Made by a program: the position numbers and the translations under genes. Shown here in pieces: positions 1 to 42,590 of a DNA stretch of 42,590 nucleotides (the stretch's first letter is position 1; every line of letters begins with the position of its first letter). The notes under the pieces were generated by a model, which made no database searches, was not told where the DNA came from, and saw nothing but the letters and a program-made list of their open reading frames with translations. Location: positions 1-42,590 of the forward strand of contig JAFCCC010000010.1 in assembly GCA_017610385.1 (NCBI GenBank), written 5' to 3'. The stretch is from Candidatus Nanohalarchaeota archaeon (GTDB lineage Archaea; Nanohalarchaeota; Nanosalinia; Nanosalinales; JAFCCC01).

Positions 1-97
1 CTTTTGTGCAAAAAGCTTATTCGCTTAGGCCTTTACTAAAAAGGCTTAGTGAGTTACACTCGTAACTCGCTGTTTGCTTGAGCTTTGTAAAAGCTCA
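1..97. repeat. Modular hairpin repeats beside tRNA-Ala
   Basis: Positions 1-22 are the end of the element seen complete at 7225-7289 and 12653-12717 (GTGCAAAAAGCTTATT end). Positions 23-75 hold one composite unit: hairpin AAGCC/GGCTT-type followed by GAGTTAC-ACTC-GTAACTC. A third hairpin, TTGAGCTTT/AAAGCTCAA, lies at 77-98. The array continues out of the window to the left. No coding sequence is visible. In the minus-strand rRNA transcript this would be the spacer between tRNA-Ala and the presumed 23S gene. Confidence 0.8.
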
Positions 98-99
98 AA

Positions 100-173
100 T
101 GGACTCGTCGGGATTCGAACCCGAGGCCTTTCGCTTGCAAAGCGAACGATCTACCAGACTGATCTACGAGCCC
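100..173 (-). tRNA. tRNA-Ala(TGC)
   Basis: Cloverleaf read on the minus strand: acceptor GGGCTCG pairs with CGAGTCC and contains the G3-U70 pair that marks tRNA-Ala. The anticodon loop is TTTGCAA with anticodon TGC; the T-loop is TTCGAAT. No intron and no encoded CCA. It lies directly 3' of the 16S gene on the same strand, the usual archaeal 16S-tRNA-Ala-23S arrangement, so it is probably cut out of the rRNA precursor. A perfect hairpin (174-189) abuts its 5' end. Confidence 0.97.
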
Positions 174-6320: not shown

Positions 6321-6352
6321 GTTTTCGGAAAACTTTTTTCAAAATAAATAGA

Positions 6353-6503
6353 TGCCCCGTCCGGGATTCGAACCCGGGTCGCCGGCTGTCTTTTCAGAAT
6401 CATACCTTTCTAATCGAAAGGCCGGAATGAATTGCCCAACATCCCTCTTAAATCACTTCCTGAAAAGAGGAACTGATGTTTGGCCAGGCTACACTAACGG
6501 GGC
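6353..6503 (-). tRNA. tRNA-Glu(TTC) with two introns
   Basis: Acceptor GCCCCGT pairs with ACGGGGC. Removing 6431-6479 (49 nt) from the D-arm, between positions 21 and 22, and 6388-6414 (27 nt) from the canonical 37/38 site restores a standard 75-nt archaeal tRNA-Glu: D-region CCAA+TCATT, anticodon stem CCGGC/GCCGG, loop CTTTCGA, anticodon TTC. The D-arm intron is closed by AACATC/GATGTT; its exact ends may shift by a few bases. No encoded CCA. Confidence 0.88.
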
Positions 6504-6610
6504 AACTGAATTGTCAGTTGACACCAACAGCGAGTTAACCAATTGTTAACTCACCTCAATACTTTCTAATTTTCGCTTAAGCCTTTTATTAAAAAGGCTT
6601 ACTTGATAAC
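6503..6610. repeat. Hairpins upstream of tRNA-Glu
   Basis: CAACTG/CAGTTG (6503-6520) abuts the tRNA-Glu start. A GTTAAC/GTTAAC palindromic stretch follows at about 6533-6553. One AAGCCTTTTATTAAAAAGGCTT hairpin lies at 6578-6600. Together they fill the space up to the small gene ending at 6646. Confidence 0.7.
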
Positions 6611-7021: not shown

Positions 7022-7372
7022 TGGGCCAGTCGGGATTTGAACCCGAGTCTACACCAGTTTGTGCGCGGAAGTGTATTTGTTTATTTCGCTTAAGCCTTTA
7101 CTAAAAGGCTTATTTTGCTTGAATTGGAAATATGTTGATTTCCGATTTAGGAAACTTAACAAGTTTCCGTGAGCTTTTATCTGAAAAGCTCATTTTATTT
7201 TCGCTTAAGCCTTTTACTGAAAAGGCTTAGTGGTAACGTACTTTTGCTTAAGATTTTTGCACGTTTACTTTTGTGCAAAAAGCTTATTTTGCTTAAGCTT
7301 TTATTTAAAAAGCTTATGTGCAAAAAGGCGCTCCCCAAGGTGCAATGCTAGTCCGGACTACACCACCGGCCC
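7022..7372 (-). tRNA. tRNA-Pro(GGG) with a 276-nt intron
   Basis: Exons: acceptor GGGCCGG/CTGGCCC; D-stem GTGT/GCAT; anticodon stem GCACC/GGTGT; loop TTGGGG+T, anticodon GGG; T-loop TTCAAAT. The intron 7057-7332 lies at the canonical 37/38 site. A relaxed bulge-helix-bulge is visible: bulges GGA and ACT, central TTG/CAA, intron helix GCGC/GCGC. Nearly all of the intron is a string of perfect hairpins also found between genes elsewhere in this window. The exons themselves look intact. Confidence 0.9.
7079..7320. repeat. Hairpin repeat cluster inside the tRNA-Pro intron
   Basis: In order on the plus strand: AAGCCTTTACTAAAAGGCTT (7090-7109), GGAAAT/ATTTCC (7125-7145), GGAAACTT/AAGTTTCC (7151-7168), GAGCTTTT/AAAAGCTC (7171-7192), AAGCCTTTTACTGAAAAGGCTT (7206-7228), TTTTTGCAC/GTGCAAAAA (7253-7281), AAGCTTTT/AAAAAGCTT (7295-7316). 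Positions 7225-7289 are a perfect copy of 12653-12717. Confidence 0.8.
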
Positions 7373-8006: not shown

Positions 8007-8022
8007 GAGCTGCAGTCAGCTC
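8007..8022. repeat. GAGCTG/CAGCTC hairpin before rpoN
   Basis: Perfect 6-bp stem with a 4-nt loop (ACTG on minus), directly upstream of the rpoN ribosome site. It is a stem variant of the hairpins abutting tRNA-Ala and tRNA-Glu. Confidence 0.6.
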
Positions 8023-8031
8023 AATTTCATT

Positions 8032-8185
8032 TTGGCTTAAGCCTTTTATTAAAAAGGCTTAGTGAGTTACACTCGTAACTCGCTGTTAAATTTTGGCTTA
8101 AGCCTTTTATTAAAAAGGCTTAGTGAGTTACACTCGTAACTCGCTGTTAAATTTTGGCTTAAGCCTTTTATTAAAAAGGCTTACC
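8032..8185. repeat. 61-bp tandem repeats between uS9 and rpoN
   Basis: Two full and one partial copy of a 61-bp unit with starts at 8032, 8093 and 8154. Each contains AAGCCTTTTATTAAAAAGGCTT and GAGTTAC-ACTC-GTAACTC hairpins. Copies are essentially identical. The last half-unit runs into the uS9 reading frame and supplies its TAA stop (8181-8183). Confidence 0.9.
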
Positions 8186-8573
8186 TATATGATTTCTGTC
8201 TCTTATGCCTTGGCCCTTTAGAACTTTGACTTGGTTTATGTACCTCTGTTCTTCTTGAATCCTCTACCAATAAGTTCCGATCATAAGCCAAAAATTTATT
8301 TTTCAAATTTTCATCTTTTGTATATTCTAAAAGTGCTCGTGCAATAGCTAATCTAACTGCTTCTGCCTGACCCATTTGTCCGCCACCAGTCACATTAGCA
8401 CGAATATCCACGTTAGTGATGCCAGATAACCTTAGTGGTTCTAAAATCATTAATTGCAAGTAATGTGGCCAGTTTTCTAAAGATTCCTTATTAATGCTAA
8501 TTTTTCCAGTTCCTTCCTTTACTGTCACCCGTGCTTTCGCAGTTTTTCGTTTTCCAACACTAAATACTACCAT
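8181..8573 (-). CDS. rps9: Ribosomal protein uS9
   Basis: 130 aa, archaeal length. Family landmarks: N-terminal VGKRKTAKARVTVK, central NVTGGGQMGQAEAVR and the basic C-terminal tail ending KGPRHKRQKSYR, which reaches the P-site tRNA. It directly follows uL13 (stop-start overlap at 8573). Its stop codon is contributed by a hairpin repeat. Confidence 0.97.
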   Translation of the reverse strand: MVVFSVGKRKTAKARVTVKEGTGKISINKESLENWPHYLQLMILEPLRLSGITNVDIRANVTGGGQMGQAEAVRLAIARALLEYTKDENLKNKFLAYDRNLLVEDSRRTEVHKPSQSSKGPRHKRQKSYR

Positions 8574-12616: not shown

Positions 12617-12787
12617 GGCCTACACCGTTTGCGTTTACTTTTGCAAAAAAAAGCTTAGTGGTAACGTACTTTTGCTTAAGATTTTTGCACGTTTACTTTT
12701 GTGCAAAAAGCTTATTTGCAAAAAAAGGCTATGCGGAAGCGTATTTTTCCCTAGGGTTTTTTTGCGTTTACTTTTGCAAAAAAAGGC
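12617..12787. repeat. Hairpin cluster 3' of tRNA-Ser
   Basis: Three hairpins share the loop GTTTACTTTT but have different stems: TTTGC/GCAAA (12629-12648), TTTTTGCAC/GTGCAAAAA (12681-12709) and TTTTTTTGC/GCAAAAAAA (12758-12785). Positions 12653-12717 repeat 7225-7289 exactly. No credible gene. Confidence 0.8.
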
Positions 12788-27018: not shown

Positions 27019-27200
27019 TTTTCACCTGACCTTCTGAAAGATCAATCCTCACGTAAAACTCTTACGAGTTTTCCTATGTTGTGAACAAAGTTCACAAGTA
27101 CAGCCAGTTGCAAGCAACTCACCGCCAAGCATTTGAGCCCATAGACTAAAACACCGTATTTGGTCAAACTTCGTTAAGTTTGCTCTTCTCATAATTTTGC
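27019..27200 (-). other. Hairpin-rich insertion between uS19 and uL22
   Basis: 182-nt gap in an operon where neighbours are 1-10 nt apart. On the minus strand it holds five perfect or near-perfect hairpins: AAACTT/AAGTTT (27168-27183), AGTTG/CAACT (27101-27114), TTGTGAAC/GTTCACAA (27075-27093), AAAACTC/GAGTTTT (27056-27073) and TGATCTT/AAGGTCA (27026-27043). CTATG/CATAG may enclose two of them. A 47-codon frame (27049-27192) exists but looks accidental. Confidence 0.6.
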
Positions 27201-42450: not shown

Positions 42451-42590
42451 TTTTCGCTTAAGCCTTTTACTGAAAAGGCTTAGTGAGTTACCCTCGTAAC
42501 TCGCTGTTTACTTTTCGCTTAAGCCTTTATTAAAAGGCTTAGTGAGTTACCCTCGTAACTCGCTGTTTACTTTTCGCTTAAGCCTTTATT
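42451..42590. repeat. Tandem hairpin repeats at the right edge
   Basis: Two units and the start of a third, about 60 bp each: CGCTTAAGCC...GGCTTAGTGAG followed by GAGTTAC-CCTC-GTAACTC and the linker GTTTACTTTT. Same family as 8032-8185 and 23-75, with small changes (ACCC for ACAC; stems of 8-10 bp). Continues past the window. Confidence 0.85.

Follow-up and report, generated by a model that had tools for sequence, protein, structure and literature searches.

The tRNA-Pro(GGG) gene and its intron

The window, that is, the whole stretch of 42,590 nucleotides that was analyzed, is contig C9 of G000, a 788-kb (0.79-Mb) DPANN genome that is 93.5% complete. Its minus strand carries a tRNA-Pro(GGG) gene (7372–7022) with a 276-nt intron at the canonical position 37/38, cut after TTGGGG; the best named match of a neighboring protein was to Ca. 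Aenigmatarchaeota BS750m-G24 (67%). ARAGORN, allowing introns of up to 400 nt, reported the gene at c[7021,7373] as tRNA-Pro(GGG) with the anticodon GGG and a 276-nt intron. It was missed by the default ARAGORN run and by the Rfam tRNA model because of the intron length. The gene is composed of the following parts:

7333–7372, minus strand: 5' exon, positions 1–37 (ARAGORN; coordinates; the spliced product folds as tRNA-Pro)
7317–7332, minus strand: intron core head AGCGCCTTTTTGCACA (16 nt), a BHB strand with the D-element head CCTTTTTGCACA
7287–7316, minus strand: module A1 (30 nt), hairpin TAAGCTTTT/AAAAGCTTA and tail AGCAAAA
7230–7286, minus strand: module D (57 nt), stem TTTTTGCAC/GTGCAAAAA, loop AAAAGTAAAC, and tail TACGTTACCAC
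7198–7229, minus strand: module A2 (32 nt), TAAGCCTTTT-CAGT-AAAAGGCTTAAGCGAAAA
7193–7197, minus strand: link TAAAA (5 nt, from the tiling)
7113–7192, minus strand: module C (80 nt), three hairpins (fold and genome matches)
7084–7112, minus strand: module A3 (29 nt; A pattern and tiling)
7057–7083, minus strand: intron core tail TAAACAAATACACTTCCGCGCACAAAC (27 nt), a D-like tail with the 3' BHB strand
7022–7056, minus strand: 3' exon (ARAGORN; coordinates; spliced product)

The exons, which a sequence-only reading had described as intact, were confirmed to the base; when joined (40 + 35 nt), they form a complete tRNA that ARAGORN recognized as tRNA-Pro(GGG) without an intron. The acceptor stem (GGGCCGG/CTGGCCC), anticodon stem (GCACC/GGTGT), T stem (TCGGG/CCCGA), and D stem were all paired in the spliced form. 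A competing reading of the locus, in which a one-position shift of the stem would make it tRNA-Pro(TGG), was ruled out, as the D-stem numbering spoke against it and its inner BHB stem was poorer; the true tRNA-Pro(TGG) is intronless and located at C3:64012. No second tRNA-Pro(GGG) that might replace the intron-bearing gene was found in the 93.5% complete genome, where the only other proline tRNAs were the intronless tRNA-Pro(TGG) and a module-bearing tRNA-Pro(CGG). The gene looks functional from its sequence.

A BHB motif was drawn by hand by placing GCACC-TTGG-GGA-GCGC against GCGC-ACAA-ACT-GGTGT, which gave outer stems and 3-nt bulges. A G-A mismatch takes up one of the four pairs in the central helix, and the motif at the splice junction, which the sequence-only reading had called recognizable, is therefore relaxed. 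The genome encodes a single splicing endonuclease (PF01974, 184 aa, E 2.4e-28; G000:C13:61589-61870). By these features, the intron would be classified as a BHB tRNA intron that carries dispersed palindromic repeats and has one mismatch in the central helix, and we infer that tRNA-Pro(GGG) is spliced in vivo.

A gap-free tiling of the intron (16+30+57+32+5+80+29+27 nt) resolved it into a 48-nt core and five repeat modules (228 nt), so that about five-sixths of it are modules, all in the same orientation. The modules form seven hairpins (one each in A1, A2, and A3, one strong hairpin in D, and three in C), and the same hairpins occur at intergenic sites, exactly as the earlier reading had counted and described. 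The D head CCTTTTTGCACA in the core exactly matches that of the D element residing in the D-loop intron of tRNA-Lys, and the core tail agrees with the D tail AAATACGCTTCCGC at 13 of 14 positions; neither the exact head nor the 13/14 tail was found in shuffled sequence. The predicted fold of the pre-tRNA-Pro was −118.7 kcal/mol, compared to −74.9 kcal/mol for 100 dinucleotide shuffles (z = −8.7); the core devoid of modules folded no better than shuffles (z 0.2) and formed the outer stems only.

Dispersed modules and the D element in other tRNA genes

A typical module starts with T(A/G)AGC and ends with the complementary arm followed by AGC(G/A)AAA. Several copies differ in both arms of the hairpin at once (TAAGCC/GGCTTA, TAAACC/GGTTTA, and TGAGCT/AGCTCA), and so do the outer arms of D (TAAG/CTTA, TAAC/GTTA, and CAAC/GTTG); these are small counts, and the paired changes indicate that the hairpin rather than its letters is kept. 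When the DNA of the Pro intron was compared with its own genome, matches were obtained at dozens of places, and a combined query with module variants added more. The modules are thus multiple, dispersed, near-identical, inverted-repeat copies, as is characteristic of MITE-like elements. No target-site duplication was seen by eye, and no Y1 (REP-associated) transposase (PF01797, Y1_Tnp) was detected at E<=0.1 in the 93.5% complete genome, so that the partner gene of a REP/RAYT system was not found.

The strict A-module pattern occurred at 20 places in G000 and in none of the remaining 27 genomes of its order, and its backwards-read control did not match G000. The modules were likewise absent from these 27 genomes, and the whole tRNA-Pro(GGG) gene, searched across the order, matched only the tRNA exons there; the class and order searches covered the same 28 genomes. 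A single viral contig matched the A pattern without a tRNA or other modules nearby and was judged to be a chance match, while the D pattern was not found in viral sequences and no plasmid records were retrieved. As far as the genome collection goes, these searches mark the repeat family as private to the lineage. Further palindrome families (CCGAGCGCTCGG, CTTGTGAACAAAATTCACAAG, and AAAACTCGTAAGAGTTTT) recurred in four further stretches and at 27079–27098 of the window, and the genome therefore has more hairpin families than A, B, C, and D. Outside the Pro intron, modules were located in the window as follows:

1–101, minus strand: modules that directly follow tRNA-Ala(TGC) on its 3' side, where the contig ends (genome matches)
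6568–6601, minus strand: A module; an intron-containing tRNA gene (6504–6351) follows 64 nt downstream
8018–8183, minus strand: A-B-A-B-A array with a 61-bp period, opening with TAA, the stop codon of the gene for ribosomal protein S9
12658–12714, minus strand: second D element, 57 nt identical to D of the Pro intron, with an equal top R1 score
12733–12789, minus strand: D element that begins where tRNA-Ser(TGA) ends on its 3' side (R1, E 1.0e-12; copy included in the model)
42451–42588, minus strand: A-B-A-B array at the opposite end of the contig (genome matches)

The S9 gene spans 8181–8573, and the stop codon of another ORF (C13:132089-132937) likewise opens a module cluster. The intron-containing gene at 6351–6504 was called tRNA-Phe(GAA) with a 73-nt intron by ARAGORN, and its sequence resembles the tRNA-Glu of relatives, with more than one intron.

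Merging the module matches gave 26 clusters in the genome, of which seven were inside tRNA genes. Seventeen of the 26 were in or within 110 nt of a tRNA, against about 0.5 expected at random placement; this test somewhat favors the result, since the modules themselves had led to several of the long-intron tRNA genes and part of the query was derived from tRNA loci. When only the tRNAs found independently by the Rfam model were considered, approximately nine of the 26 clusters were close by hand count, which is still far above the expectation. None of the clusters whose gene context was checked was within a protein-coding frame. At least seven tRNA genes, tRNA-Pro(GGG) among them, carry repeats internally; among the module-holding introns are also those of tRNA-Trp (177 nt) and tRNA-Pro(CGG) (151 nt), which contain C/B and A modules, and of tRNA-Gly(GCC) (79 nt). 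The intron modules are in sense orientation in the two tRNA-Pro genes, tRNA-Lys, and tRNA-Tyr, and antisense in tRNA-Trp, tRNA-Gly(GCC), and tRNA-Gly(TCC).

For the D element, a covariance model (R1) was built from seven copies, and a search of the genome with it identified 12 elements at E<1e-3, including five in tRNA introns. These five introns are in the anticodon loop of tRNA-Pro(GGG) and tRNA-Gly(GCC), the T-loop of tRNA-Gly(TCC) and tRNA-Tyr(GTA), and the D-loop of tRNA-Lys(CTT), so that one intron sequence occurs in different tRNA genes and at different positions, as in the Thermoproteales type. D of the Pro intron, a copy that is part of the model, scored E 1.7e-14, and the three copies outside the model, those in tRNA-Gly(GCC), tRNA-Lys, and tRNA-Tyr, provided a check, being recovered at E values of 2.5e-9, 3.3e-6, and 1e-4. 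D is in sense orientation in the Pro, Lys, and Tyr genes and antisense in both Gly genes. When the segments containing D were cut out, normal tRNA-Lys(CTT), tRNA-Gly(TCC), and tRNA-Tyr(GTA) were recovered, the latter two still containing an ordinary anticodon-loop intron. In tRNA-Lys(CTT) (G000:C17:28092-28241), the D-loop intron is mostly a D element, and the unspliced gene was miscalled tRNA-Gly by ARAGORN. Both tRNA-Tyr(GTA) (G000:C11:129955-130140) and tRNA-Gly(TCC) (G000:C3:8918-9175) have an anticodon-loop intron in addition to the T-loop D intron; their T-loop introns have opposite D orientations and the common ends TTAGCC...GGTTACGA. Non-canonical tRNA intron sites usually go with broad-specificity types of splicing endonuclease, and this genome has a single endonuclease gene despite its introns at such sites.

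Origin and growth of the intron

The D-like head and tail of the Pro core suggest a D-type origin, and the D head in this core ends in the loop of the D element, where a T(A/G)AGC module starts. Incomplete D heads 3' of tRNA-Ser(GGA) and tRNA-Ser(TGA) likewise end in the loop at the start of another module. The simplest history is likely to be that of a D-type intron whose loop was later filled by other modules. We therefore consider it probable that a D-type BHB intron was enlarged by the genome's own non-autonomous palindromic modules, which accumulated where insertions were tolerated. The intron at 37/38 would have begun as, or become, a D-type double-hairpin element, and copies of A, C, and a further D module would then have been placed in the loop of D after CCTTTTTGCACA. 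The tolerant sites would be tRNA introns, which the splicing endonuclease would cut out together with the modules, the DNA just 3' of tRNA genes, and the ends of genes. The direction of these events and the nested insertion are what we infer from the arrangement, which suggests that repeats can both create and enlarge tRNA introns.

The gene was found to be intronless in four relatives of the order (G004, G005, G006, and G007); an order-wide tRNA-Pro pattern gave mostly chance matches, with those in G004, G005, and G007 being real. Genus and family are represented by a single genome (G000), and there is no empty-site pair at the species level because G000 has no close relative.

The sequence-only reading proposed that a short intron had been repeatedly invaded. 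The dispersed family inside a 48-nt core with D ends, the four intronless relatives, and the presence of these modules in several other tRNA introns agree with invasion; however, stepwise growth is improbable, as A2-link-C-A3 recurs as one contiguous block. This block (query 109–257) is contiguous at C12:2-150 with 95% identity, A-link-C recurs at C11:141191-141320 (95%), and C-A3 at C3:1-113 and C6:1-113 (96%); D of the Pro intron with its tail is 99% identical to C9:12648-12717. Two or three events, in which ready-made arrays were copied or recombined, could thus have filled the intron. This contiguous recurrence at 95–96% identity also provides the basis for a tentative alternative to single mobile insertions, namely, that exchange with pre-assembled intergenic arrays, by recombination or gene conversion, enlarged the intron. 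However, the introns of tRNA-Lys, tRNA-Tyr, tRNA-Gly(GCC), and tRNA-Gly(TCC), which contain D only, need no array, and the join points vary between copies, which is equally explained by the movement of single modules.

The idea that the intron acts as a safe harbor explains the pattern only in part, since modules are also located directly 3' of tRNAs and at the stop codons of protein genes. The sequence-only reading further predicted that hairpin-rich intron RNAs, linear or circular, would be released. The modules outside introns bear on a somewhat unlikely explanation, namely, that the modules are functional signals (T-rich terminators or 3'-end processing hairpins) and that their intron copies are secondary, with little or no function. 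Seven tRNA genes (Ala-TGC, Ala-GGC, Leu-GAG, Ser-TGA, Ser-GGA, and those at C3:26192 and C6:4298) have a module beginning within a few nucleotides of their 3' end, in every case in the orientation of the tRNA; it places a T4–T7 run directly downstream, as would suit an archaeal terminator. Modules also begin at the stop codons of two protein-coding frames, the S9 gene and the ORF at C13:132089. A signal role is at odds with the occurrence of both orientations in introns, where T-runs could hinder transcription, and with the lack of a module at most tRNA genes. A terminator role of the 3' modules is a credible rival or complement to the enlargement of a D-type intron by dispersed modules, and the modules in the intron are best seen as passengers that would be removed with it.

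Several contigs end in modules (positions 1–101 and 42451–42590 of the window and the ends of C3, C6, C11, and C12), and thus, the internal number of modules could be affected by the assembly; the repeats limit the assembly of this MAG. A repeat-caused chimeric join within the tRNA-Pro gene, to which such contig ends and the same 113 bases at the start of C3 and C6 might point, is very improbable, as the acceptor and anticodon stems formed between the two exons match, the core ends pair as GCGC/GCGC, and independent module-bearing tRNA introns are located well inside contigs. Archaeal tRNA-Trp introns can carry C/D guides, but we regard it as extremely unlikely that the hairpins here represent guides or any other known type of intronic RNA, since the Pro intron contains neither a C box (RUGAUGA) nor CUGA, the marks of a C/D-box RNA, and the Rfam matches in the window at gathering thresholds were only to tRNA and 16S.

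A stronger role of the D double hairpin, as itself a mobile intron-forming element, seems doubtful to us. If true, D would have brought splice-competent ends with it into the D, anticodon, or T loops of tRNA genes and then become a landing pad for further palindromes; in this lineage, tRNA introns would have been gained and transposed by means of palindromic repeats, possibly via spliced intron RNA.

Comparison with known systems

In the open-licence literature, no report was found of dispersed palindromic repeats that make up archaeal tRNA introns. The modules resemble the Rickettsia palindromic elements and small mobile bacterial repeats (PMC2229807), which are short, dispersed, non-autonomous, and located between and within genes. 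Unlike the Rickettsia elements, to which they are likened by description, the modules reside in archaeal BHB introns and show a strong tRNA bias. The hairpin or mobile short repeats in small genomes, such as the RHE of sponges (PMC2800124) and a mobile DNA family of yeast (PMC4478555), are comparable but organellar (mitochondrial), and no report of mitochondrial hairpin elements as a source of protein-spliced tRNA introns was found in the open-licence literature.

In Caldiarchaeum, the gain of tRNA introns was ascribed to integrase-type mobile DNA (PMC3293823), and our case is similar to this model in attributing intron gain to mobile DNA. The insertion in Caldiarchaeum is associated with a recombinase gene and is thought to recombine at att sites, whereas the modules here are palindromes of 25–80 nt without coding capacity.

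Transposed tRNA introns have been described in Thermoproteales, with the mechanism of their spread given as unknown (PMC4090602, PMC4033280). Compared with these introns, likened by description, the present repeats constitute a palindromic family that also occurs outside tRNA genes, in both orientations, nested, and in a DPANN genome. The Pro gene demonstrates that a tRNA intron tolerates approximately six-fold growth (48 to 276 nt) with its exons intact. The case bears on how archaeal tRNA introns spread, which a review describes as unknown (PMC4090602), in that a recognizable repeat is common to several tRNA introns and also occurs outside tRNA genes. This allows a direct reading of the donor pool, of the order of nesting, and of the sites of insertion, all of which can be traced across strains.
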